This document shows, piece by piece, positions 7,436 to 24,691 of a DNA stretch of 42,863 bases; position 1 is the first letter of the stretch; each line of letters starts with the position of its first letter. Below the pieces are notes generated by a model, which saw nothing but the letters and a program-made list of their open reading frames with translations, was not told where the DNA came from and made no database searches. Source of the stretch: Candidatus Butyricicoccus avicola. GTDB taxonomy: Bacteria; Bacillota; Clostridia; Oscillospirales; Butyricicoccaceae. The stretch spans positions 1 to 42,863 of the forward strand of contig DWWZ01000010.1 in the NCBI GenBank assembly GCA_019119435.1. Reading direction: 5' to 3'. The position numbers and the translations under genes are program-made.

Positions 7436-7484
7436 GAAAAAGCGGACGTCTTTCGATCTCTGGTCGAAAGACGTCCGCTTTTTT
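7436..7484. terminator. Strong bidirectional terminator between GNAT and hypE
   Basis: A perfect 16-bp stem AGCGGACGTCTTTCGA / TCGAAAGACGTCCGCT is flanked by A4 on the left and T7 on the right. It can serve the plus-strand GNAT unit and, less ideally, the minus-strand hyp operon. Confidence 0.9.
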
Positions 7485-7495
7485 GTCTCCAAGGC

Positions 7496-9637: not shown

Positions 9638-9845
9638 GGCGAAGCTCCTCTAAAAGTGCGATGTTTTCCTGCGCCTCGGCGTCGGACAGTTTTTGGATGG
9701 CAAACCCGGCATGTACCATGACATAATCCCCGGGTTTTGCGTCCGGTACGAAGTCGATGCGGACGGTCTGGCGCAGGCCGCCGGCCTCGCACCGGGCAGA
9801 GGTCCCGGTGATCTCAGAGATCTGCATAGGCATTGCTAGGCACAT
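9627..9845 (-). CDS. hypC: HypC/HybG/HupF family hydrogenase chaperone
   Basis: 72 aa. It starts with the defining MCLAMP, in which Cys2 (after Met removal) holds the Fe unit and contacts the large-subunit precursor. The centre GDYVMVHAGFAIQKL is also typical. It carries the Fe(CN)2CO unit from HypD to EchE. Its start lies inside the end of hypF (32-base overlap) and its end inside hypD. Confidence 0.96.
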   Translation of the reverse strand: MCLAMPMQISEITGTSARCEAGGLRQTVRIDFVPDAKPGDYVMVHAGFAIQKLSDAEAQENIALLEELRHAL

Positions 9846-12162
9846 GGTTCATACTCCTTTTTTTGCGGGCAATGGCAAGCTGGCCAAGGCATAGGCCCTC
9901 GTCGTTTGTCGAGACCCGGTGATGCGTATAGACGGAAAAACCGTTTTGCTCCAGCAGGGCGGTGACGCCGGCGAGCAGAAAGCGGTTCTGAAAGACGCCG
10001 CCGGACAGGACGACCGGCAGGCGATCTGGGTTGAGTGTCTGGCACTGGTCCAGCGCCAGGCAGCACAGCGTTGCCAGAAAGCGCAGCGCGATGCGGCCGC
10101 TGTCCTGTCCGGCGGCAAGGTCGTCCAAGATGGCGGCGATGAGCGGGCGCGTGTCGAACACGCGCACCGCCTCCTGGGGATAAAATGTGAGCGGATAGGC
10201 GAGCGCGGCGCACGGGATGCCCAGCGCCTCCGGTGTTTCCACTGGCGAGAGCGCCTCCAAAAGTGCCGCGCCTTCGCCCTCATAGTCGGTCACGGCGCGG
10301 CCGGTCAGCAGCGCGCAGACGCCGTCAAACAGCCGGCCGATGCTGCTCGCCGCCGGGCAGAGCTGCGGCGCGGAACAAAGCAGACGCGAGAACCTCTGCC
10401 GCGCAGGGGCGGGCAGAGGGACCGCCTCCATACGCGCCGGCGCTGCGTCCTGGACCAAGGCCAGGGCAATGCGGCCGATCTCGCGGATGGCGCGGTCGCC
10501 GCCCGGCAGCCGGACAGCGCGGACCGAGCCTGCCCGCACGAAGTGCGTGAGGTCGCCCCGCAGGAACTCCCCGCCCCAGATGGTTCGGTCGAGGCCGAGG
10601 CCGGTGCCGTCCCAGATGATGCCGAAACAGTGCGCATCCAGCCCATTGTCCGCCATGCAGGAGGCCATATGCGCCCAGTGGTGCTGTACCTGTAGGAGCG
10701 GGACCCCCTGCGCCCGGGCGCGTCGGACGGCTTCCTGGCTGGATAGATAGTCGGGATGCAGGTCACACACATAGAGCGAGGGCTGGGCGCGGAACAGGCG
10801 GGCATAGGTATCCATGGCCTGGGTGTAATGTGCAAAGGTCTCGGCGTTTTTGAGGTCGCCGATGTAGGGGCTGATGAAGGCCTGCTGTCCCTTTCCCAGG
10901 GCGAAGGAGGCCTTTTGCTCGGCGCCCATGGCAAGAATGCCATCGGCATCGGCCTCCAGTGCAAGCGGGCGCGGGGCATAGCCCCGGCTGCGGCGCAGGA
11001 AATAGGGCGCGCCGCGCCAGACCGCGATCAGGGAGTCGTCACAGCGGTTTTGGATGGGCCGGTCATGCAGCAGAAAGCCGTCGGCCACACCGTCCAGCGC
11101 GTCCAGCGCCGCCTGGTTTTCGGTCAGGACCGGGCAACCGGATAGGTTGCCGCTGGTCATGACTAAGGTGTCCGGGCCGCCATATGTGCCGTCGATAAGC
11201 AGGGTGTGCAGCGGAGAATAGGGCAGCATGACGCCCAGGCGTGCGCTGAAGCTGAGCGCGGCGAAGGCCGTGCGGTCACACTTTTGCAGCAGCACAATGG
11301 GCCGGGCCGGGCTTTGCAGAAGGCGGATCTCATCCGGGTCAGGCCGGCAGATGGCATGCACGGCGTCCAGGGAGCGGCACATAACCGCGAGGGGCTTGTC
11401 CGCACGGCGTTTTTTGCGCCGCAGCCGCTGCACAGCCCGGGTATTTTTGGCATCACAGGCCAGATGGATGCCGCCGACCCCCTTGACCGCGAGGATGCCG
11501 CCGCCTGCGAGCAGCGACTGGGCCAGGCGGAAGGCGCCGTCCCCACGCACCGTGCTGCCGTCCCGCCCGGCAAAAAAGACCTGCGGCCCGCAGGCCGGGC
11601 AGCAGTCTGGCTGGGCGTGATAACGCCGGTCGCGGATGTCACGATATTCGCGCGCACAGGCCGGGCACATGGAAAAGGACTGCATCGTCGTCCGGTTCCG
11701 GTCGTAGGGCAGCGCACGGATGATGGTATAGCGGGGGCCGCAGTTCGTGCAATTGATGAAGGGATAGCGGTATCTGCGGTCAGAGGGTGTATAGAGTTCG
11801 GCTTCGCAGTCCGCGCACATGGCGATATCGGGCGAAACCAGCGTGGAGCCCGCATCTAAGCTGCTCTCGAGGATGGTAAACTCATGCGGAAGCCCTTCAG
11901 GCGGCGGCGCGCACGCCTGCACCTCGACCGACTGTACGGCCGCCATGGGCGGCGGCGAGGACGAGAGCGTGTCCAAAAAGCGCGTCAACGCCTCCTGCGG
12001 CCCGGATAACAGCCCTTCCAGGCCGGAGGAGGTGTTGCGCACCCAGCCGCAGATCCCGTTTTGCACAGCTAGGCGGTGCAGAAACGGGCGGAAGCCCACG
12101 CCCTGGACAATGCCCGTGACCGTCAGCCGGACACAGGATGTTCCCTTGCCCGGGTGTGTCAT
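9814..12162 (-). CDS. hypF: HypF, carbamoyltransferase of hydrogenase maturation
   Basis: 782 aa, full length. HypF makes the carbamoyl group from carbamoyl phosphate and ATP and passes it to HypE. Domains in order: acylphosphatase-like (residues ~8-95, VTGIVQGVGFRPFLHRLA), two zinc fingers (~110-190, CADCEAELY...CTNCGPRY and CPACAREY...CCPACGP), a YrdC-like domain (~200-385, GGILAVKGVGGIHLACDA, SARLGVMLPYSPLHTLL, TSGNLSG), and a Kae1-like domain (~400-770, VQHHWAHMASCMAD, GIIWDGTGLGLD, LSGGVFQN). The start overlaps the hypB stop as ATGA. This operon places hypF between hypB and hypC, with all six hyp genes in one unit. Confidence 0.97.
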   Translation of the reverse strand: MTHPGKGTSCVRLTVTGIVQGVGFRPFLHRLAVQNGICGWVRNTSSGLEGLLSGPQEALTRFLDTLSSSPPPMAAVQSVEVQACAPPPEGLPHEFTILESSLDAGSTLVSPDIAMCADCEAELYTPSDRRYRYPFINCTNCGPRYTIIRALPYDRNRTTMQSFSMCPACAREYRDIRDRRYHAQPDCCPACGPQVFFAGRDGSTVRGDGAFRLAQSLLAGGGILAVKGVGGIHLACDAKNTRAVQRLRRKKRRADKPLAVMCRSLDAVHAICRPDPDEIRLLQSPARPIVLLQKCDRTAFAALSFSARLGVMLPYSPLHTLLIDGTYGGPDTLVMTSGNLSGCPVLTENQAALDALDGVADGFLLHDRPIQNRCDDSLIAVWRGAPYFLRRSRGYAPRPLALEADADGILAMGAEQKASFALGKGQQAFISPYIGDLKNAETFAHYTQAMDTYARLFRAQPSLYVCDLHPDYLSSQEAVRRARAQGVPLLQVQHHWAHMASCMADNGLDAHCFGIIWDGTGLGLDRTIWGGEFLRGDLTHFVRAGSVRAVRLPGGDRAIREIGRIALALVQDAAPARMEAVPLPAPARQRFSRLLCSAPQLCPAASSIGRLFDGVCALLTGRAVTDYEGEGAALLEALSPVETPEALGIPCAALAYPLTFYPQEAVRVFDTRPLIAAILDDLAAGQDSGRIALRFLATLCCLALDQCQTLNPDRLPVVLSGGVFQNRFLLAGVTALLEQNGFSVYTHHRVSTNDEGLCLGQLAIARKKRSMNHVPSNAYADL

Positions 12163-12815
12163 CGCGCCGCACGTGCGATGTGGCCGGATAGGAAATCCGC
12201 AAGCGCGTCTATCCCGTCGCCCGTCCGGCTGCTGACACGGAAGAGGGGCGCTGACGGATTGACCGCCTCGTAGTTGGCGCAGACGCGGGCCTCATCAAAA
12301 TCGAAGTAGGGCAGCATGTCATATTTATTCAGCACCAGGCAGTCGGTATCGGTGAACATGAGCGGGTATTTTTCCACCTTGTCATCGCCCTCGGGAATGC
12401 TCAGGAGGGTCATGCGCAGCGATTCGCCGATGCGGAACTCGGCCGGGCACACAAGGTTGCCGATGTTTTCCACAAAGATGACGTCGAGCCGATCGAGCGG
12501 CAGCGCGGGCAGGATCTTCTGGATGCTCATGGCCTCGATATGGCAGGCACCGTCGGTGTTGAGCTGCACGGTGGGGACGCCCAGCGCAGCGATGCGCTCG
12601 GCGTCCACCTGCCCGGCGATATCGCCCTCGATAACGCCCACCCGGAAGTTCGCCTTCAGGCGTTGGATGAGTGCGGTGATGAGGCTGGTCTTGCCCGCGC
12701 CCGGGCTGCCCATGACGTTTATCATACAGATATGCTGGCCGGCCAGCGTCTGCTTGACCGCATCGCTTACGTCCTCATTCCAATCCATGACCTGGTGCAG
12801 TACTTGGATCTCCAT
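12159..12815 (-). CDS. hypB: HypB, GTPase for nickel insertion
   Basis: 218 aa SIMIBI-class GTPase. It has the P-loop GSPGAGKTSLI (residues ~36-46), the switch GDIAGQVDAERI, the metal-site region ENIGNLVCPAEF and the base-recognition NKYD. With HypA it delivers Ni to the large subunit after iron insertion. There is no His-rich nickel-storage segment and no N-terminal CxxCGC high-affinity nickel site, so this is the short form without metal storage. Start ATG 12815 follows GGAGG and overlaps the hypA 3' end by 41 bases. Confidence 0.96.
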   Translation of the reverse strand: MEIQVLHQVMDWNEDVSDAVKQTLAGQHICMINVMGSPGAGKTSLITALIQRLKANFRVGVIEGDIAGQVDAERIAALGVPTVQLNTDGACHIEAMSIQKILPALPLDRLDVIFVENIGNLVCPAEFRIGESLRMTLLSIPEGDDKVEKYPLMFTDTDCLVLNKYDMLPYFDFDEARVCANYEAVNPSAPLFRVSSRTGDGIDALADFLSGHIARAAR

Positions 12816-13158
12816 TGCTGTCTACCTCCATGCTTTTGATATAGAATTCCTTGCCGGACAACAGCTTGAGCCGCAGGCTCCCGCAGTAGGGGCACTGCAA
12901 ATGGTGGGGCGTAATCTCGCCCTGCCGCCCGCAGTCCCGGCACAGGACCTGGACCGGAAGAAACTCGGCTGTGATCTGTGCCCCTTCGGCGATTGTCCCC
13001 TCAGAGAGCATGTCCAGGTAGACCTGGATGCAGTCCGGGACGATCCCGCGCAGCCGTCCGATACACAGATGAATTTTTCGGATCTTGCCAGCGCCCGCCG
13101 CCTGCGCGCGCTGGATACAGTCGGCAAGCAGGTGCTCGGTGATGCTGAGTTCGTGCAT
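12775..13158 (-). CDS. hypA: HypA, nickel metallochaperone
   Basis: 127 aa. The start is set at ATG 13158 (MHELSITEHLL), because Met-His2 is the Ni ligand pair of HypA and GGGAGG precedes it. The listed ORF adds 21 false residues. The zinc site is CRDCGR...CPYCGS (two CxxC pairs about 15 residues apart). The tail after the zinc site (GKEFYIKSMEVDSNGDPSTAPGHGLE) is longer than usual because the gene runs into hypB. First gene of the hyp operon, divergent from echA; a shared 254-base gap would allow joint control. Confidence 0.95.
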   Translation of the reverse strand: MHELSITEHLLADCIQRAQAAGAGKIRKIHLCIGRLRGIVPDCIQVYLDMLSEGTIAEGAQITAEFLPVQVLCRDCGRQGEITPHHLQCPYCGSLRLKLLSGKEFYIKSMEVDSNGDPSTAPGHGLE

Positions 13159-13318
13159 AAAAAAAACCTCCCCGCCCATCGCCCGGCCCGCATGGGGCCG
13201 CAAAGCGTGGAGCACGATCATTCAACAACCTACATTTTAGCATATTTTCTGCGGGATGGGGTAGAGAAACTTCAATGCTACAAAATATGTGAAAATTTCT
13301 CCGGGGTACTTGTAAAAT

Positions 13319-13347
13319 TTGCACAAAAGGATTATAACAAATATAAT
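13319..13347 (+). promoter_or_regulatory. Probable promoter of the ech operon
   Basis: TTGCAC (13319-13324), 17-base spacer, TATAAT (13342-13347), about 65 bases before echA. The -10 is perfect and the -35 weak, which would fit an activated promoter. No clear minus-strand promoter was identified for hypA in the same gap; TAAAAT near 13231-13236 is a possible -10 only. Confidence 0.45.
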
Positions 13348-13412
13348 AGGTTATTTCTTCTTTATCAGCATGCGCTGTGACAATATGGGAAAAGTGATTG
13401 GAAGGAGGATTC

Positions 13413-15305
13413 ATGGAAATGATACCATTACTGATCGGGATACCGGCCGTACTCGCGGTGTTATTTCAGGTTATCCGAAACGAAAAAGCGAGGGGCTACG
13501 TGGTCTATGCAGGCGCGGGTGTCCTGATGCTCACGACGGTCATTTTCATCTGGCGATGGATCGCGGACGGTGCGCAAACCTGGACATTTTACCCACAGAC
13601 CGAACTGATCGACCACCTGATGACGGTGGGCGACATCGTGCTCATGTGCCTGATTATCTACCTGAGCGTTAAATACAAGAAGATACTGCCCATCCTGCTG
13701 ACCGTCTCCCAGACGGCGCTGCTGCTTTATACGGAGTTTACAGCCGAAGTGGTGGAAGGCCCGCACATGATGGTGGATTGGCTGACCATTTTGATGTGCA
13801 TCATCATCGCCTTCATCGGCGGCTTCATCTGCATCTATACAGTCGGCTATATGAAGGGCTATCACGCGCACCACACCGATGTGCAGGACCGGCAGCCGTT
13901 CTTCTTTTCCATGCTGTTCTTGTTCCTCGCGGCCATGTTCGGCCTGGTCCTGTCGCAGAATCTTATCTGGATCTACTTCTTCTGGGAGATCACGAGCGTG
14001 ATTTCCTTCCTGATGATCGGTTACACCCGCACGCCGGAGGCCGTGGGGAACAGCTTCTGTGCCCTGTGGATGAACCTCCTGGGCGGCCTGGGCTTCGCCG
14101 TGGCCATTGCGCTCATGGCGCAGATCTATGGCACGGTGCAATTGACCGATGTCGTACAGATCGGCGCGCTGCTGCCGCTCATGTGCCTGGCGCTTGCCGG
14201 CATGACCAAGTCGGCCCAGCTCCCCTTTTCCACCTGGCTTTTGGGCGCGATGGTCGCGCCGACGCCGTCCAGCGCGCTCCTGCACAGCGCCACTATGGTC
14301 AAGGCCGGCGTCTATCTGCTCATCCGCATCTCGCCGGCCCTTGCCGGCAACCTGGTCGGCATCATCGTCTCCAGCATCGGCGGTTTTACCTTCATCATGG
14401 CCAGTATGATGGCAATTGCGCAGCACGACGCCAAAAAGGTGCTGGCCTTCTCGACCATCTCCAACCTCGGCCTGATCGTCGGCTGCGCCGGCATCGGCGC
14501 GGAGGAGACGGTCTGGGCGGCGATCTTCCTGATGATCTTCCACTCGGTCAGCAAATCTATGCTGTTCCAGTCGGTCGGCGCAGCCGAGAATACGCTGGGC
14601 TCACGTGATATCGAGGACATGCACGGCCTCATCATCCGCGCACCCAAGCTGGCGTACATCATGGGCATCGGCATCGCCGGCATGTATCTGGCCCCCTTTG
14701 GCATGCTGATCTCCAAATGGGTCGCGCTCAAAGCCTTCGTCGATTCCGGCAACTTTGTGCTCGTGCTGTTCATCGCCTATGGCAGCGCCACGACTATGTT
14801 TTACTGGACCAAGTGGCTGGCAAAGCTGCTCTGTTACCACATCCCGCGCCAGAAGACACAGGACCTGACGCACAGAGATGAGTACGTCTCCATGTCGTTC
14901 CACGCGGTCAGTATGCTGCTGCTGTGTCTGCTGCTGCCCCTCGTGGCGGTCGGCGTGGTCAACCCGATCGTGCGCAACCTGTTCGGCAACTCGACCGACG
15001 TGCTGTCCATGAGCGTTCTGACGACCATGGCGATCATGCTGGTCTCGATCTTCATCGTGCCGGTCGTCATGTTCTTCATCAGCCGGCGGTCGCATACCGA
15101 GCTGGTACCGATCTATATGAACGGCATCAACGAGGGGGACAACCGGTTCTTCCGCAATAGCTACGATGAACAGGAACACCTCTACCTGAGCAACTGGTAT
15201 CTCAGGCGGGAATTTGGCCGCGGCCATCTCCGTGTTCCCTCCATCATTCTCGCGGCGGCGGTGTTGGTCCTGGGCTTCTGTCTGGTAATAGGAGGCGTGT
15301 CATGA
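13413..15305 (+). CDS. echA: EchA-like antiporter subunit of membrane-bound hydrogenase
   Basis: 630 aa, very hydrophobic, about 14-16 membrane helices; NuoL/MrpA/Proton_antipo_M family. It is the ion-pumping arm of an energy-converting hydrogenase. Key stretches: LIWIYFFWEITSVISFLMIGYTR, MTKSAQLPFSTWLLGAMVAPTPSSALLHSATMVKAGVYL with the conserved Lys and His of the transport channel, and HDAKKVLAFSTISNLGLIV. Start at ATG 13413 directly behind GGAGG; the in-frame ATG 13419 is an alternative with more usual spacing. The listed TTG 13398 lies upstream of the ribosome site. It overlaps echB as ATGA. Which ion (H+ or Na+) is moved cannot be told from sequence. Confidence 0.93.
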   Translation: MEMIPLLIGIPAVLAVLFQVIRNEKARGYVVYAGAGVLMLTTVIFIWRWIADGAQTWTFYPQTELIDHLMTVGDIVLMCLIIYLSVKYKKILPILLTVSQTALLLYTEFTAEVVEGPHMMVDWLTILMCIIIAFIGGFICIYTVGYMKGYHAHHTDVQDRQPFFFSMLFLFLAAMFGLVLSQNLIWIYFFWEITSVISFLMIGYTRTPEAVGNSFCALWMNLLGGLGFAVAIALMAQIYGTVQLTDVVQIGALLPLMCLALAGMTKSAQLPFSTWLLGAMVAPTPSSALLHSATMVKAGVYLLIRISPALAGNLVGIIVSSIGGFTFIMASMMAIAQHDAKKVLAFSTISNLGLIVGCAGIGAEETVWAAIFLMIFHSVSKSMLFQSVGAAENTLGSRDIEDMHGLIIRAPKLAYIMGIGIAGMYLAPFGMLISKWVALKAFVDSGNFVLVLFIAYGSATTMFYWTKWLAKLLCYHIPRQKTQDLTHRDEYVSMSFHAVSMLLLCLLLPLVAVGVVNPIVRNLFGNSTDVLSMSVLTTMAIMLVSIFIVPVVMFFISRRSHTELVPIYMNGINEGDNRFFRNSYDEQEHLYLSNWYLRREFGRGHLRVPSIILAAAVLVLGFCLVIGGVS

Positions 15306-16165
15306 AGAGTATCGTTTTTGTTGCGGCCTATCTGGTATTTGCGCCCTTCCTGGGCGGGCTTCTGGACGGCGTGGACCGCATCATCAGCGCGCGCATGCAG
15401 CGCAGGAAGGGCCCGGTCCTGTTACAGCCGTTCTATGACATTGGCAAACTGCTCTCCAAAGAGCAGATTGCCGTCAACAAGGTGCAGCTCCTGCTCAACC
15501 TGAGCTATCTGGTCATCCTGATGATCGCAGGCAGCCTGCTGTTTGGGGGCGCAGACCTGCTGATGGTGCTCTTTATCCTGAGTACAGCTGACATGTTCCT
15601 GATTATGGCGGCCTCGAGCGACTCCTCCCCCTACGCCAACATGGGCGCCAACCGTGAGATGCTGCAAATGATGGCCTACGAGCCGCTGACGCTGCTCGTC
15701 GCGGTCGGGTTCTATCTGACAACCGGCTCGTTCCATGTGTCCGACATTGTAGCGGCGGACGTCAGCGCCGTTGTTTGGATGCCCGGCCTGCTGGTGGGCT
15801 TCATGTTCACGGCCGCTATCAAATTCCGCAAATCTCCCTTTGACCTGTCCACCAGCCACCATGCGCACCAGGAGATGGTCAAGGGCCTGACGACCGAGAT
15901 GTCGGGTACGACCCTGGCCATTATGAATATCGCCGAATACTATGAGATGGTCCTGCTGCTGGGCATCTGCTGCCTGTTCTTTGTCAACAGCACCTGGTGG
16001 AGCTGGATCGTCGCGGTCGTGCTGTGCGGCGTGATCTTCTTCCTCGAGACGCTGTGGGACAATGTCAGCGCGCGCGTCAAGTGGAAGAACGTGTTGTATA
16101 GCTGCTGGGCTGTGACGCTGGTGGCTGGCGGCGTGAACATCCTGTTTTTGATGCTGGACAAGTAG
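15302..16165 (+). CDS. echB: EchB-like membrane subunit (NuoH homologue)
   Basis: 287 aa with about eight membrane helices. It is the NuoH/HycD/EchB family subunit that links the soluble hydrogenase arm to the ion pump. The conserved loops RRKGPVLLQPFYDIGKLLSKEQ, SPYANMGANREMLQMMAYEPL and FRKSPFDLSTSHHAHQEMVKGLTTEMSG, with their acidic and basic residues near the quinone-site equivalent, are clear. The start is coupled to the echA stop (ATGA). echC follows after 16 bases behind GGGAGG. Confidence 0.95.
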   Translation: MKSIVFVAAYLVFAPFLGGLLDGVDRIISARMQRRKGPVLLQPFYDIGKLLSKEQIAVNKVQLLLNLSYLVILMIAGSLLFGGADLLMVLFILSTADMFLIMAASSDSSPYANMGANREMLQMMAYEPLTLLVAVGFYLTTGSFHVSDIVAADVSAVVWMPGLLVGFMFTAAIKFRKSPFDLSTSHHAHQEMVKGLTTEMSGTTLAIMNIAEYYEMVLLLGICCLFFVNSTWWSWIVAVVLCGVIFFLETLWDNVSARVKWKNVLYSCWAVTLVAGGVNILFLMLDK

Positions 16166-16181
16166 AGGGAGGTAGCGGACT

Positions 16182-16619
16182 ATGAACAAAGTATCCAAAT
16201 CGCCGTGGCTGCTCCACTATGACGCCAGCAGCTGCAACGGGTGTGACATCGAGGTGCTGGACTGCCTGACGCCCAAATATGACATCGAACGGTTCGGCAT
16301 CATCAATACGGGCGACCCGTTCCAGGCAGATATCCTGCTCATTACAGGCGGGGTCAACAGCCAGACAGCTCCGGTCGTCAAGCAGATTTACAGCCAGATG
16401 GCCGAGCCCAAGGTGGTTGTGGCGGTCGGCATCTGCGCATGCACGGGCGGCGTATTTAAAGAGTGTTATAATATCAAGGGCGGGATCGATACGGTCATCC
16501 CGGTGGACGTCTATGTGCCCGGCTGTGCCGCGCGCCCGGAGTCCATCATTGACGGCGTCGTCCGGGCGCTCCAGGTGCTCGACGACAAGCAGGCCGCCTT
16601 GAAAAATAAGGAGAGGTGA
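16182..16619 (+). CDS. echC: EchC, small subunit of group 4 NiFe hydrogenase (NuoB homologue)
   Basis: 145 aa. It holds the single proximal [4Fe-4S] cluster next to the NiFe site. Cys ligands are visible in DASSCNGCDIEVLDC, GICACTGGVF and VPGCAARPES. No Tat signal is present, as expected for group 4 enzymes that face the cytoplasm. It ends at TGA 16617-16619, just before the echD start. Confidence 0.95.
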   Translation: MNKVSKSPWLLHYDASSCNGCDIEVLDCLTPKYDIERFGIINTGDPFQADILLITGGVNSQTAPVVKQIYSQMAEPKVVVAVGICACTGGVFKECYNIKGGIDTVIPVDVYVPGCAARPESIIDGVVRALQVLDDKQAALKNKER

Positions 16620-16624
16620 CAGCG

Positions 16625-16972
16625 ATGGATAACCGGAGCGAGATCCGGAAGATCACGATGGCTGAGTTCTTTTCGGCGGTCGTACACATGAAGACCGAGG
16701 GCTGGCGGCTGGCCCAGATCTGTGCGAACAGTGTCCCGCAGGGATATGAGATGAGCTATTCCTTCTGCAAGGGATACCAGATGGTGACGCTCCGCCTGGA
16801 GGTTGGGCCGGACGAAGAGGTGGCGAGCATTACGCAGATCTATCCCTGCGCGTTCTTGCAGGAAAATGAGGCCAAAGAACTGTTCGGCGTGCAGATCACC
16901 AAGATACAGCCCGATTACCGGGATAAGCTGTACCGGATTGAGGAGAGCACGCCGTTCCGCAAAAAGGAGTAA
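16625..16972 (+). CDS. echD: EchD-like subunit (NuoC homologue)
   Basis: 115 aa, starting at ATG 16625, eight bases after GGAGAGG. The GTG at 16616 in the ORF track overlaps that ribosome site. The NuoC signature is seen as IYPCAFLQENEAKELFGVQI. It is a small cytoplasmic structural subunit bridging the small and large subunits. It lacks the long C-terminal part of respiratory NuoC, as is usual for EchD. Confidence 0.93.
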   Translation: MDNRSEIRKITMAEFFSAVVHMKTEGWRLAQICANSVPQGYEMSYSFCKGYQMVTLRLEVGPDEEVASITQIYPCAFLQENEAKELFGVQITKIQPDYRDKLYRIEESTPFRKKE

Positions 16973-16980
16973 GAGGGAAC

Positions 16981-18060
16981 ATGTCAACGAGAAGTATTGT
17001 ACCGTTTGGCCCGCAGCATCCTGTCCTGCCGGAGCCGGTGCATCTGGATCTGGTGCTGGAGGATGAGATGGTGGTCGATGCGGTCCCGAGCATCGGATAT
17101 ATCCACAGGGGCCTGGAAAAGCTGGTCGACAAGCGGGACTTTAAACAATATGTATACATCGCCGAGCGCGTGTGCGGTATTTGCAGCTGCGGGCACGGGC
17201 TGGGCTACTGCCAGGCGGTGGAGCAGGTCATGGGCATTGAGGTGCCCGACCGGGCACGCTATCTGCGCACAATCTGGATGGAGATGAGCCGCGTACACAG
17301 CCATCTGCTATGGCTCGGCCTGTTGGCGGACGCCATGGGGTTTGAAAGCCTGTTTATGGAGAGTTGGCGCCTGCGCGAAAAAATATTGGATCTATTTGAT
17401 GAGACGACCGGCGGCCGCATTATCCACTCGGTCAACCAGGTGGGCGGCGTGCAGAAGGACATGGATCAGGGCATGCTGGACGATATCCTGCGTGTGACCC
17501 GTGATCTGGAAAAGGACATGAAGCCGGTCATCGATACCTTTTTGCAGGACTATACCGTACAGAGCCGCCTCAAAGGGGTCGGCGTGCTCAGCAAGGAGGA
17601 CGCCATCGGCCTTGGCGCGGTCGGGCCGATGCTGCGTGCGAGCGGGGTTTCCTATGACGCGCGCCTTTTGGGCTATGCGGCCTACGGCGAACTGAGCGTA
17701 GAGCCTGTCCTCTCCACAGAGGGGGATTCCTACGGGCGCTGTGCGGTACGCCTTCAGGAGATCCTCCAGTCCTTTGCCCTCATCCGCGAGGCCATTGGCA
17801 AGATCCCCGCCGGGCCGGTCAGCGCGCCGGTCAAGGGCAACCCGGACGGCGAATACTTTTTCCGCATCGAACAGCCCAGAGGTGAGGCGATCTATTATGT
17901 CAAGTGCAACGGCACCAAGAATTTGGAACGCTTCCGCCTGCGCACACCGACGACGAGCAATATCCCGCCGATGGTGCAATTACTCAAGGGCAGCCAGCTG
18001 GCCGATGTGCCGCTCCTAATCTTGACCATTGACCCCTGTGTCAGCTGCACCGAGCGGTAA
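16981..18060 (+). CDS. echE: EchE, catalytic large subunit of group 4 NiFe hydrogenase
   Basis: 359 aa, NuoD homologue carrying the NiFe site. The two Cys motifs that bind the metals are present: ERVCGICSCGHG (CxxCxxxH near residue 65, with an extra Cys in the middle) and the C-terminal DPCVSCTER. The protein stops exactly at the Arg after the second motif. There is thus no C-terminal peptide to remove, as known for EchE and CooH types, and no HycI-like protease gene is present. The active enzyme oxidises reduced ferredoxin (through EchF and EchC) and reduces protons to H2, or runs in reverse. Confidence 0.96.
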   Translation: MSTRSIVPFGPQHPVLPEPVHLDLVLEDEMVVDAVPSIGYIHRGLEKLVDKRDFKQYVYIAERVCGICSCGHGLGYCQAVEQVMGIEVPDRARYLRTIWMEMSRVHSHLLWLGLLADAMGFESLFMESWRLREKILDLFDETTGGRIIHSVNQVGGVQKDMDQGMLDDILRVTRDLEKDMKPVIDTFLQDYTVQSRLKGVGVLSKEDAIGLGAVGPMLRASGVSYDARLLGYAAYGELSVEPVLSTEGDSYGRCAVRLQEILQSFALIREAIGKIPAGPVSAPVKGNPDGEYFFRIEQPRGEAIYYVKCNGTKNLERFRLRTPTTSNIPPMVQLLKGSQLADVPLLILTIDPCVSCTER

Positions 18061-20824: not shown

Positions 20825-23113
20825 ATGAATGAAGAGAGAATGCGCAAGCGGCTCGTGCGCATGACCATCGTCATGGTGGTGGTCAGCTTCCTGCTGCTCG
20901 CGTGCGCGGGTGTGATTATTGGTTCCATCTGGAACGCGCAGAGAAGTTCTTATGAGGCGCAGCTGCAGGCCACGGTGACCGAGCACAAACTCAGCCTCGG
21001 CCGTGAGATGTCCTCCAATATCCGCACGCTGCAAACCTTGTCAGCTTTTATCGAAAATACGCCGGATTTGACCTTCCAGGACCTGGCAGAAGGCCTGCCC
21101 AGCTCACAGAGCGCCGCGAATTTTATCCGGATGGGCTATTATGCAGTTGAGGGCGAGGGCATCCGTGTCACCTTTGGCGGTGAACTGGAGCTGGACGTAC
21201 CCTATGAGAGCCTAAATCCTGCCATCCAGCAGGCCATCGCGCAGGCGTGGCAGGGGCAGGCCTCCATCTCGGAAGTGTATTTCAGCGAGGACTTTGACGA
21301 AAATACGGTGGGCTATGCCGTTCCGGTCTATGACAAGGCGGGGCAGACTGTGGGTGCGCTCATTGGCCTGGAAACGCTGGACACCTTCCAGCAGCTATTG
21401 GAGACGACCACCGAACTGGACACCCGGCTGGATCTGAGCTGGATCAATGAGGAAGGCGAGTTCTTGGCCTGGTCGGGCGGGCAGGTCGGTGAACAGTCTA
21501 ACCTGTTCACGGCGGACTTCCTATCCGAGGCGGATATTGCTGCGGCACAGCAGGCCATGCAGGCCGATCAGACCTACCGCTGTGACATCACGTTATATGG
21601 ACAGAAATACCCGTTTTATTTTGATCCCATTGGGGAGCATCACTGGTACCTCGTATGCCTCGATTGGTCGCAGGGCATGGACAGCCCGGTCTATCCGTTC
21701 CTGGTCGTGACCGGACTGGGCCTCGGCGCAATCGTCCTGCTGTGCATCCTGCTCATTGCGTATGGCTACCACACCCTGCACCGCAACAGCCGGGAACTTA
21801 TCCGGCTGGCCTACTATGACCGGCTGACCGGCTGCTACAACCTGGAGCGATTTCAACAGGCCTGTACCGATACGCTTTCCCACGGGAGCGGTTACAGCAT
21901 TGTAGTGCTCAATATCCGGCGTTTTCAGTACATCAATGAGATCTTTGGGCGCAGCCAGGCCGACCGCTTGCTGTGCGATATCGCAGACATCCTACAGGAC
22001 AGCCTGCACCAGAACGAGTGCTGCAGCCGCTACATGGGCGACCAGTTTTATCTGCTGATGCAGGCCGTCGATCCGGACAGGCTGAAACAGCGGCTGCTCG
22101 GCATCATGGGGCGCATCAGCGGCATTTTCGAGCAGACAGGCCGAAACTATCCCATCGTCCTATATGCGGGCGCCGCGATCGGGACACCGTCCATGGCGGG
22201 GGAACAGGCAGCAAAGACGCTGCTGCATCAGGCTGAATTTGCGCTCAAGCATGTGCGGGACCGGCATGAAAATATGGTCGCTTTCTATAATGACGACATG
22301 CATGCCGCCGACGCCCAACAGAACAACATAGAAAGCAGCATGCGGTATGCACTGTCAACCGGGCAGTTCCAGATGTGGCTGCAACCCAAAATGGACCTGC
22401 AGACCGGAGTCCTGTGCGGCGCCGAGGCGCTTGTCCGCTGGGTCCGCCCGGATGGCGGGATGTTTTATCCAAATGAGTTCATCCCACTCTTTGAGCGCAA
22501 CGGCTTTTGCACCGAATTCGACCTCTACATGGTGGAGCGGGCCTGTGCCTGCCTGCGGGCGTGGATGGACGCGGGCATCCAACCGGTGCCGATCTCGGTC
22601 AACCAGTCCAAACTGCTCTTTTACCAGAGTGATTATGTGAATAAGCTGTGCGCGCTGACCGACCAGTACGGCGTGCCGCGCACCTTGATCGTGCTGGAGA
22701 TCCTGGAGGGTCTGGCGGCAGAAAACCTGGACGAGCTCAATAAGACCATCGAACAGCTGCGCGCATGCGGCTTCCGCCTGTCGCTCGACGATTTTGGCAG
22801 CGGATACTCCTCGCTGACCATCCTAGCACGGCTTTCCATCGACGAGGTCAAGCTGGATCGCAGTTTCCTGCTGGGGATGTCGCGGCAGGAGAGCGACGGC
22901 CAGCAAAAGCTGCTGCGCAACGTGGTGCGCCTGGCACGAGACCTCGGCCTGCGCACGGTCGTAGAGGGCATCGAGACCGCCGAGAACGCCGCCCTCGTGC
23001 GGTCGGTCGGGTGTGACGTCGGTCAGGGATACTATTACAGTCGCCCGATCAGCGTGGCAGATTTTGAGGCCAAATATTTTTCGGATAAACTGCCGCCAAA
23101 GGCCGACTTGTGA
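20825..23113 (+). CDS. Membrane GGDEF-EAL protein, probable c-di-GMP phosphodiesterase
   Basis: 762 aa from ATG 20825 (GGAGG upstream). Layout: membrane helix ~12-35, an extracytoplasmic sensor-like region ~36-288 (Cache-like), helix ~290-315, GGDEF domain ~325-490, EAL domain ~505-750. The GGDEF domain begins with YYDRLTGCYNLERF, but its signature is YMGDQF instead of GGDEF, so cyclase activity is unlikely. The EAL domain looks complete: GAEALVRW, SVNQSK, LEILEG, LDDFGSGYSS, VKLDRSF, VVEGIET and GQGYYYSRP hold the metal and catalytic residues. Prediction: it senses an external signal and breaks down c-di-GMP, possibly with the GGDEF part as a GTP-binding regulatory domain. Single-gene unit. 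Confidence 0.9.
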   Translation: MNEERMRKRLVRMTIVMVVVSFLLLACAGVIIGSIWNAQRSSYEAQLQATVTEHKLSLGREMSSNIRTLQTLSAFIENTPDLTFQDLAEGLPSSQSAANFIRMGYYAVEGEGIRVTFGGELELDVPYESLNPAIQQAIAQAWQGQASISEVYFSEDFDENTVGYAVPVYDKAGQTVGALIGLETLDTFQQLLETTTELDTRLDLSWINEEGEFLAWSGGQVGEQSNLFTADFLSEADIAAAQQAMQADQTYRCDITLYGQKYPFYFDPIGEHHWYLVCLDWSQGMDSPVYPFLVVTGLGLGAIVLLCILLIAYGYHTLHRNSRELIRLAYYDRLTGCYNLERFQQACTDTLSHGSGYSIVVLNIRRFQYINEIFGRSQADRLLCDIADILQDSLHQNECCSRYMGDQFYLLMQAVDPDRLKQRLLGIMGRISGIFEQTGRNYPIVLYAGAAIGTPSMAGEQAAKTLLHQAEFALKHVRDRHENMVAFYNDDMHAADAQQNNIESSMRYALSTGQFQMWLQPKMDLQTGVLCGAEALVRWVRPDGGMFYPNEFIPLFERNGFCTEFDLYMVERACACLRAWMDAGIQPVPISVNQSKLLFYQSDYVNKLCALTDQYGVPRTLIVLEILEGLAAENLDELNKTIEQLRACGFRLSLDDFGSGYSSLTILARLSIDEVKLDRSFLLGMSRQESDGQQKLLRNVVRLARDLGLRTVVEGIETAENAALVRSVGCDVGQGYYYSRPISVADFEAKYFSDKLPPKADL

Positions 23114-23163
23114 CCAGCCCTGCCGTGCCAGACAGACCAGCAAAAATTTGTGCAAAATTGCCT

Positions 23164-23191
23164 TTGCAAAATAGCAGGCAGCCGGTATAAT
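23164..23191 (+). promoter_or_regulatory. Promoter before the hairpin leader
   Basis: TTGCAA (23164-23169), 16-base spacer, TATAAT (23186-23191). Transcription would start just before the hairpin at 23200-23250. Confidence 0.45.
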
Positions 23192-23199
23192 GAATTATA

Positions 23200-23250
23200 G
23201 ACGTGTAGCATACACTGCGTAAATCCAGTTGTGTGCTGCACGTCTTTTTT
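23200..23250 (+). terminator. Leader hairpin with U-run (terminator or attenuator)
   Basis: GACGTGTAGCATACAC...GTGTGCTGCACGTC TTTTTT. It either ends the GGDEF-EAL transcript or, with the promoter just upstream, makes a small transcript of about 55 bases or attenuates the DUF2798 remnant. Confidence 0.6.
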
Positions 23251-23282
23251 CATAAGTTATGGCAAAACAGGAGGAATGTACA

Positions 23283-23400
23283 ATGCCAAAAGACAGGAAA
23301 CAGGGGATGGTTTTCGGGGTCATCATGTCATATGCGATGGCCTACGGCATGGAGATCTATAACATCGCCATCAAGGAAGGCATACCGTTGTTTCAAGTGA
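23283..23400 (+). pseudogene. Truncated DUF2798 family gene remnant
   Basis: ATG 23283 with AGGAGG upstream starts MPKDRKQGMVFGVIMSYAMAYGMEIYNIAIKEG, the first membrane helix and conserved YGMEIYN of DUF2798 proteins. After about 37 residues the homology stops; the frame then runs without sense through a terminator and into the 3' end of the opposite gene (to 23600). DUF2798 proteins normally continue to a second helix, which is missing here. Good start signals kept in front of a deleted body suggest a recent deletion. Function of the family is unknown. Confidence 0.65.
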
Positions 23401-23406
23401 GGGATA

Positions 23407-23441
23407 GGGCCTGCCCGCTTGTGGGCAGGCCCATTTTTTTG
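23407..23441 (+). terminator. Terminator after the DUF2798 remnant
   Basis: GGCCTGCCCGCTTGTGGGCAGGCC followed by CATTTTTTT. Confidence 0.9.
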
Positions 23442-23446
23442 GCCGT

Positions 23447-24691
23447 CTATGTGGGGCGGCGCAGGGCGGGGATGAGGGCGGAAAGCACAATTGCCACAAG
23501 CCCTGCCGAAAAGCCGTTGTTATATAGATTCATGCCGGCGACCGGGGAACTGGTGCACAGTACGACCGACGCATGCAGGAAACCGGCCAGCACGCCGTAA
23601 GGCCAGCCGAACCGGCCGCTGACCGGGGCGAGCGCCGTACAGAACAGGCCGGCAAGCTGTACGGCGCTGTCGGACAGCGACCAGTGCATGCAGACGCTGC
23701 CCAGCACCACGCCGCCCATCACAGGGAGCATGTTGCGCGCGTGCTTGCCATAGGCCGAGAAGCCCAAGATGGTCAGGATGGCACCCAAGGTTGGGCCGTT
23801 GAGGTCGCCGCCCGTGCACAACAGGAAGCCCAGGGCAATCACGCCGTTGGTGCCCATGTTGATGAGCGTCGGGGCGGGGCCGAACTGTACCAGGTAGTCG
23901 CTGGGGGCGCGGCCGCTGGTGCGCAGCAATGCGCGATACCCGCGCAGGGCGGCGCTGGGCGGCTGGCCGCACAGGAAGAGCCCGGCGAGCAGCAGGAGGG
24001 CGCATAGCCCGAAAGACAGCAGCAGCACGGGCAGCGGCCGCCCGGATGCCCAGCGGTACTGCACGGCCGGCGCCGCCCCGAGGGCATTCATGAGCGGGAC
24101 GATGAGAAAGGCGGCCAGGCCGCAGGCAAAGCCGGTGTTATACAGGTTCATGCCGCGCTGGAGCCGATAGGTGTAGGCGGCGAGGGCGGGCAGCAGGAAC
24201 CCGATGGCCGCACCGGCCAGGATGCCGGCGGGCAGGGTGCCCCAGCCGTTGTCCAGCACGAAATAGCTGACCACGGGCGCAAGGGCAGTCGCGGTCAAGC
24301 CGGCTGCGGCATAGCGGCCGAAAGGCTCACGCCGGTACCAGGCGTACAGACGCGCGCCCAGCAGGATGGGCCACAGGTTGAGGCCGTTTTTGCCGAAAAG
24401 GGCAAAACCTGACATCAGGCCCACGACGACCAGGGCGCTGCCGTCAAAGGGCGTATGGGCGTGCTGCAATGTGGCGATACTGATTGCGGCGACCAGCCCT
24501 GCATTCACTAGAGCCGGCCCAGGCCCGGCGACCAGCATATAGTCGGTGATCAGGGCGTCTTCGGTCAGCACGATCTGGGCCAGCCCGGGCCCGAGCTGGC
24601 CGGCCGGCGTGATTACAAATCCGGCTGCAGCGAGTAGGGCGCTATATGCCCACAGGAGGGGCAGCACAGGGGAGGTATTCGGCGGCGCCAT
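23447..24691 (-). CDS. DUF1576 membrane protein with internal duplication
   Basis: 414 aa with about ten to twelve membrane helices and no soluble domain. The two halves are related: GMNLYNTGFACGLAAFLIVP in the first half and GMNLYNNGFSAGLVAIVLSA at the C-terminus, as well as FDGSALVVVGLMSGFALFGKNGLNLWPILLG against NGPTLGAILTILGFSAYGKHARNMLPVMGG. This is the DUF1576 pattern; function unknown, perhaps a transporter given the inverted/duplicated design. ATG 24691 follows AAAGGAGG. It lies downstream of spoVT on the same strand (75-base gap holding a GC-rich hairpin), so it may be partly co-transcribed. Confidence 0.85.
   Translation of the reverse strand: MAPPNTSPVLPLLWAYSALLAAAGFVITPAGQLGPGLAQIVLTEDALITDYMLVAGPGPALVNAGLVAAISIATLQHAHTPFDGSALVVVGLMSGFALFGKNGLNLWPILLGARLYAWYRREPFGRYAAAGLTATALAPVVSYFVLDNGWGTLPAGILAGAAIGFLLPALAAYTYRLQRGMNLYNTGFACGLAAFLIVPLMNALGAAPAVQYRWASGRPLPVLLLSFGLCALLLLAGLFLCGQPPSAALRGYRALLRTSGRAPSDYLVQFGPAPTLINMGTNGVIALGFLLCTGGDLNGPTLGAILTILGFSAYGKHARNMLPVMGGVVLGSVCMHWSLSDSAVQLAGLFCTALAPVSGRFGWPYGVLAGFLHASVVLCTSSPVAGMNLYNNGFSAGLVAIVLSALIPALRRPT

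Follow-up and report, generated by a model that had tools for sequence, protein, structure and literature searches.

Several described leader RNAs provide points of comparison for the element considered here. Guanidine-IV (the mepA motif) is a leader RNA located 5' of genes for MATE-type exporters. Its binding site lies partly in the stem of the 3' hairpin, a Rho-independent terminator, such that the ligand blocks terminator formation (PMC12186494, PMC11611296). Two hairpins linked through a pseudoknot make up this RNA, in an aptamer of 88 nt (PMC11611296, PMC9788692). Its variant, the Gd4v motif, is a terminator-linked leader found mostly in gut bacteria and sometimes 5' of MATE genes; it also comprises two hairpins and a pseudoknot, is represented by constructs of 95-105 nt, and is located mainly before a transaminase gene (PMC9788692). 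The ABC-leaders of Naville and Gautheret are premature-terminator attenuators, of which the examples shown form an antiterminator structure (PMC2965389).

Against this background, comparative analysis of the window (the whole 42,863-nt stretch of DNA under study) indicates that positions 23146-23253 probably belong to a conserved family of cis-regulatory leader RNAs outside Rfam 15, each of which would act as a regulated premature terminator, or attenuator. The feature expected of such a device, a terminator kept in evolution between promoter and start codon, is present.

Results

Architecture of the leader in the window

The components of the locus follow one another closely on the forward strand. 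The first is an imperfect palindrome, ATTTGTGCAAAAT (23146-23158), which lies 5' of the -35 box and is common to many promoter-linked copies of the element, as seen in an alignment of the window with the related loci L003 and L002 and in column counts over 43 copies; it could be a protein operator or an UP-like element. The promoter (23163-23191) consists of a -35 box TTTGCA (23163-23168), a 17-nt spacer and a -10 box TATAAT (23186-23191), with 10/12 matches, and transcription is predicted to start at about 23198-23200. The full match to the covariance models R1, R2 and R3 extends over 23195-23253. Within it, a stem-loop (23200-23244) is formed by a 15-bp lower stem with arms at 23200-23214 and 23230-23244 (GACGUGUAGCAUACA/UGUGUGCUGCACGUC), for which a fold of -29.2 kcal/mol is predicted (z = -6.9; 0/200 shuffles equally stable), and it carries a near-invariant loop, CGUAAAUCC (23218-23226; family consensus CGUAANUCC). 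A U6 tract (23245-23250) makes the hairpin a full Rho-independent terminator; a simple terminator scan did not list the hairpin at 23200-23250, presumably owing to the loop-length limit of the scan. A Shine-Dalgarno sequence AGGAGG (23269-23274) and an ATG start codon (23283) follow, and a second Rho-independent terminator, with an 11-pair stem and T7, is located at 23407-23440. The sequence-only reading that preceded this work had described a TATAAT at 23186, a hairpin with six Us at 23250, a good start site and a second terminator, all of which were recovered at these positions.

A dispersed family of leader elements

BLASTN with 23110-23450 as query matched two relatives (E 1e-5), covering the promoter and hairpin but not the gene, and in both of these a MATE transporter is among the downstream genes. 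The alignment of the window, L003 and L002 has in common TTTGTNCAAAANNGCCTTTGCA, the -10 box and CNGCGTAAATCCNGTTG. Seven more convincing copies, all in gut Clostridia (Lachnospiraceae, Ruthenibacterium, Pullichristensenella, Roseburia and others), came from a pattern scan; exact-pattern matches in genome contigs were mostly due to chance, and only those with a hairpin and U-tract were retained. Searches with covariance models place the element in at least 15/87 genomes of the family (strong matches, E <= 1e-5, model R1), at least 36/394 genomes of the order, in 24/168 genera (model R2), and at least 3/399 genomes drawn from the phylum, where it is rare, these counts being lower bounds with few candidates scored per genome in the large searches, and with the weaker R1 matches (E ~1e-4 to 1e-2), which include ordinary terminators, left out. 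Most copies derive from metagenome assemblies. Model R3, built on 55 copies with the window left out, detects the window element at 64.0 bits (E 3.8e-12); it gave no other convincing match in the window, and no second clear copy was found in the window's genome.

Some hairpins encountered in these searches are separate from the family. A strong symmetric terminator hairpin at 7436-7488 of the window gives a weak R1 match (24.9 bits) on both strands; it was rejected as a family copy, being without the conserved loop, and was judged an ordinary terminator. At about 6702-6745 of L080, in a Clostridia genome, an unrelated perfect hairpin with a T-run, GCGTAAATCCG..CGGATTTACGC, holds the loop word as stem sequence. 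Elsewhere in the window, large ORFs at 9814-18060 resemble, by eye, HypF and an energy-converting hydrogenase or complex I-like cluster.

At the curated threshold of Rfam 15, whose coverage of guanidine-IV is uncertain, cmscan matched no family to the element, either in the window or at 12 related loci; with a permissive E-value threshold, applied to the window and 24 related loci, there was again no convincing match to it. We found no paper describing the motif; an unnamed prior prediction may be present among the 3,161 gut RNA candidates in the supplements of PMC8040213.

Conservation of helix, loop and spacing

Over 55 relatives, standard pairs occupy 91.9% of pair cells and 11/16 pairs are altered on both sides. 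Compensatory cells number 123, compared with 39.2 +/- 5.9 after shuffling (0/500), and the covariation score is 0.461, compared with 0.219 after shuffling (0/500) and at most 0.155 with the arms slid, counts that are somewhat favoured by alignments fitted to the structure by the model. On this comparative evidence the conserved hairpin is an RNA helix. Its 5' arm (CGUGURGC) is better conserved than the 3' arm. In the 43 promoter-linked copies, the N of the loop CGUAANUCC is A (23), U (10) or G (8), with two single-base variants in addition; it is U in all MFS copies and G in CarD copies. Copies located between genes have CGUAA or CAUAA in the loop, followed by A/G-UCC.

The spacing of the element is also constrained. 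The distance from the -10 hexamer to the stem is 8 nt in 28/43 promoter-linked copies, the value also found in the window, and 6-10 nt in 42/43, so that a start site of the usual kind would fall on the first bases of the stem; the RNA would then begin with the hairpin, and no upstream space is left for an antiterminator helix. At least five U occur in a span of eight after the stem in 53/53 copies, and 7 or 8 in 42. The predicted start codon, assigned automatically in each case, lies no more than 43 nt (9-43) beyond the U-tract in 33/43 promoter-linked copies, an interval too short to hold a second promoter. The next 100 nt downstream offered no partner for the loop, the mean longest complement being 5.4 as against 5.1 for shuffled loops. 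Pairing of AAAUCC in the loop with GGAUUU at the ribosome site of L086 was rejected, being absent from other copies; no partner was found in the tmRNA upstream in L003; and a leader peptide across the loop was rejected since, by eye, its frame is not kept between copies.

Genes behind the leader

By inspection, the 43 promoter-linked copies directly precede MATE genes in 16 cases and a gene for a 79-residue protein, often then followed by MATE, in 12, with rubrerythrin (4), MFS (3), CarD (2), an ABC exporter (1), cysK (1) and unassigned genes (2) among the other classes, and DUF2798 in the window and L146 (2/43; L192 is a third case); HMM checks cover one MATE (TIGR00797, over cut-off) and examples of rubrerythrin, MFS, CarD, ABC and Cytidylate_kin2, and the remaining assignments rest on sequence likeness. 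Promoterless copies occur between operon genes, mostly right before MATE (L037, L057, L108, L139, L002, L135 and others), and a promoterless hairpin of the same class lies between rubrerythrin and Cytidylate_kin2 genes at L136:2249-2308. A Cytidylate_kin2-type kinase is also found near the leader in L108. The leader of L142 contains two tandem copies.

The 79-residue protein, MKRIKAACICQTLHF...PVGDYL, has an invariant CxC and is encoded between leader and MATE (L086:3940-4176, L037:2204-2446, L057:2693-2926, L108:5656-5892). It corresponds to no Pfam or NCBIfam family. A beta-alpha-beta-beta fold is predicted for it in a low-information model (pLDDT 78), for which there was no PDB match at E <= 0.001, and no relatives of known kind were found.

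A truncated DUF2798 gene in the window

In the window the leader is followed by a DUF2798-family stub of 34 codons, MPKDRKQGMVFGVIMSYAMAYGMEIYNIAIKEGI (23283-23384), recognised by homology to intact orthologues; its open frame continues without homology to 23600. An intact orthologue (L146, 170 residues) aligned by tblastn to 23283-23390 over residues 1-36, with 69% identity (E 3.2e-10). This was the sole match in the 80%-complete genome, in which no second DUF2798 copy was found. Against eight intact orthologues, 24-25/34 residues are identical as far as codon 34 and 1-3/26, mostly 1/26, over the next 26, whence the sharp end of homology after codon 34. The deletion of the gene body suspected from the sequence alone is thereby borne out, as is a short remnant, although homology covers 34 residues rather than the 37 originally counted; most of the sequences are metagenome-assembled, and the truncation may be an assembly error. 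Comparison with full DUF2798 genes places the left end of the deletion after codon 34. It did not place the right end: the 25-nt tail aligns consistently with no part of intact DUF2798. The window encodes no full-length DUF2798 protein of ~170 residues, only the 34 homologous codons. The Pfam DUF2798 model (PF11391) matches neither the stub nor the intact L146 orthologue, and the name therefore rests on homology, the L146 protein being 34-43% identical to genes that include Pfam-positive DUF2798. The T-run of the second terminator is present on the + strand only, and this terminator thus probably marks the old 3' end of the lost DUF2798 gene. A mini-peptide could be made from the stub. Since the gene has lost all after codon 34, the window leader probably now drives only this stub and a ~50-nt RNA.

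A leader of the window type also precedes intact DUF2798 genes in L146/L191 and L192, and hence predates the deletion. Intact DUF2798 genes in the family have at least four distinct terminator-like leader types, the window's included, the other three being unrelated to it. The second, conserved in one genus (L194-L200), lies ~75-190 nt 5' of DUF2798 and has the form CCGUGUAGCACA...GGUUNNCGCAAAGCGUGUAAUAUCC..GGAUAUUAUGCGCUUUU, with no Rfam match over it in the representatives L196 and L199. The third, AAUGGUAGUNG...ACGAAAGUUU...UUUUUUU, occurs in several genera (L203, L205-L213, L216, L218), ~50-120 nt 5' of DUF2798 and at the promoter itself; Rfam gave no convincing match to it, and a search of 300 other genomes of the phylum did not find the exact pattern. 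The fourth (L201, L202) lies ~50-110 nt 5' of DUF2798 and reads CGGUAGAAAUAAGUC...GGCGUAGUCUAUGUG.AUAGGCUGCGCCUUUUCUUUU.

Discussion

The mechanism we favour for this leader is one of regulated premature termination. By default, RNA polymerase would halt at the U-tract and free an RNA of ~50 nt; binding of a signal, either a small molecule or an RNA-binding protein, to the loop would leave the stem unable to close or act, and polymerase would then continue into the efflux or stress gene. A single hairpin would in this way serve as both sensor and terminator, a dual role that it should have because there is no upstream room for an antiterminator and none was found downstream. The A/T-rich conserved palindrome 5' of the promoter hints at a DNA-binding protein that adds to this control or takes its place. 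The locus had been proposed from sequence alone to be a possible small-RNA locus left by a deletion. A ~50-nt RNA is indeed likely if the hairpin terminates; creation of the locus by the deletion is not supported, as the promoter-hairpin unit stands before intact genes in many relatives and is therefore a pre-existing leader, of which the short RNA would be the attenuated transcript.

A narrower version of this proposal, which we offer tentatively and with considerable doubt, is that gut Clostridia have in this element a riboswitch-like class of very small size, in which a ~45-nt 5'-terminal terminator hairpin, its apical loop CGUAANUCC being itself the aptamer, would switch on MATE, MFS and ABC exporters together with rubrerythrin upon encounter with a toxic compound or stress metabolite, whether the element stands alone, in tandem or between the genes of an operon. 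Under such an arrangement, specificity may be adjusted through the variable base of the loop. The downstream gene classes point to no one obvious ligand.

Alternatively, the hairpin could operate after transcription, a protein or RNase binding it at the 5' terminus and setting mRNA stability or translation, with the U-tract of minor importance. Its placement in promoter-linked copies at the extreme 5' end, the site of known 5' stabilisers, shortly 5' of the ribosome site, is compatible with such a role, and the intercistronic copies could serve as processing sites. However, every one of the 53 copies has a U-tract after the stem, which would be needless for a stabiliser, and the loop shows no conserved pairing to the region of the ribosome site (5.4 vs 5.1 shuffled). 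We regard this explanation as unlikely.

Less likely still is a trans-acting small RNA, in which the terminated ~50-nt transcript would use the conserved loop as a seed in the regulation of other mRNAs, which extends the sequence-only reading to the family as a whole. The window unit does have its own promoter and terminator, and its near-invariant loop is exposed. Yet nearly all copies are cis-linked, over a short distance, to few gene classes, and some are intercistronic and promoterless; rather than an independent small-RNA gene, the comparison reveals a fixed 5' leader, 33/43 promoter-linked copies having the start codon 9-43 nt after the U-tract. Moreover, one loop position varies (A, U or G, with U before MFS and G before CarD), which fits a cis-acting sensor better than a trans-acting seed.

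We consider it very improbable that the transcribed palindrome is a repressor site at the DNA level, with the hairpin incidental. Palindromes just 3' of promoters are typical operators, and a second palindrome lies 5' of the -35 box, but changes in the stem sequence are compensatory, arm length varies, the best-conserved part is the non-palindromic loop, and promoterless copies occur. Scarcely credible, finally, is the case that the sequence-only reading had named against itself, a hairpin that is a mere terminator of the upstream gene. That gene is of the GGDEF/EAL type, and the promoter match would then be due to chance. The hairpin lies 87 nt past the GGDEF/EAL stop and could catch read-through, but a promoter stands between that gene and the hairpin, and the hairpin, its loop and its distance from the -10 box are kept together with the downstream gene classes.

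If premature termination at a sensing hairpin is indeed how the leader works, dozens of uncultured gut Clostridia would use one RNA signal for exporters and oxygen-defence genes, through a simple design in which one hairpin is sensor and terminator. An export or stress role would also be suggested for DUF2798 proteins and for the 79-residue protein encoded beside MATE. The tiny size of the element, its self-contained form and its link to defined promoters would permit a direct search for the ligand or protein that it responds to.

Comparison with known leader systems

LoaP is an antiterminator of Firmicutes, in which a leader hairpin is tied to processive antitermination. No LoaP over the curated cut-off was found in 44 genomes, 22 of them element-bearing, and a LoaP-dependent leader was rejected as a trans-factor system on this ground; sub-threshold matches occur also in 13/14 control genomes and therefore look like ordinary NusG. 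With the premature-terminator attenuators the window-type leader shares a terminator between promoter and gene, and the use of one element before several transporter genes; unlike the ABC-leaders, it leaves no room for an antiterminator. Membership in guanidine-IV or Gd4v was rejected, since the two hairpins and pseudoknot that characterise both were looked for and are lacking. Like Gd4v, the window-type leader is terminator-linked, comes from gut bacteria and has MATE among its targets; it differs in the absence of two hairpins, a pseudoknot and a transaminase gene. From guanidine-IV it departs in being a single ~45-nt hairpin from the predicted transcription start, with a loop that has no downstream partner, and in a gene set that includes rubrerythrin, CarD and DUF2798, with no sugE/emrE seen. 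Like guanidine-IV, it possesses a terminator hairpin, the stem being followed by a U-tract in 53/53 copies, and most copies precede MATE, a feature not specific to guanidine-IV. Guanidine-IV is the nearest working parallel to the mechanism proposed here.
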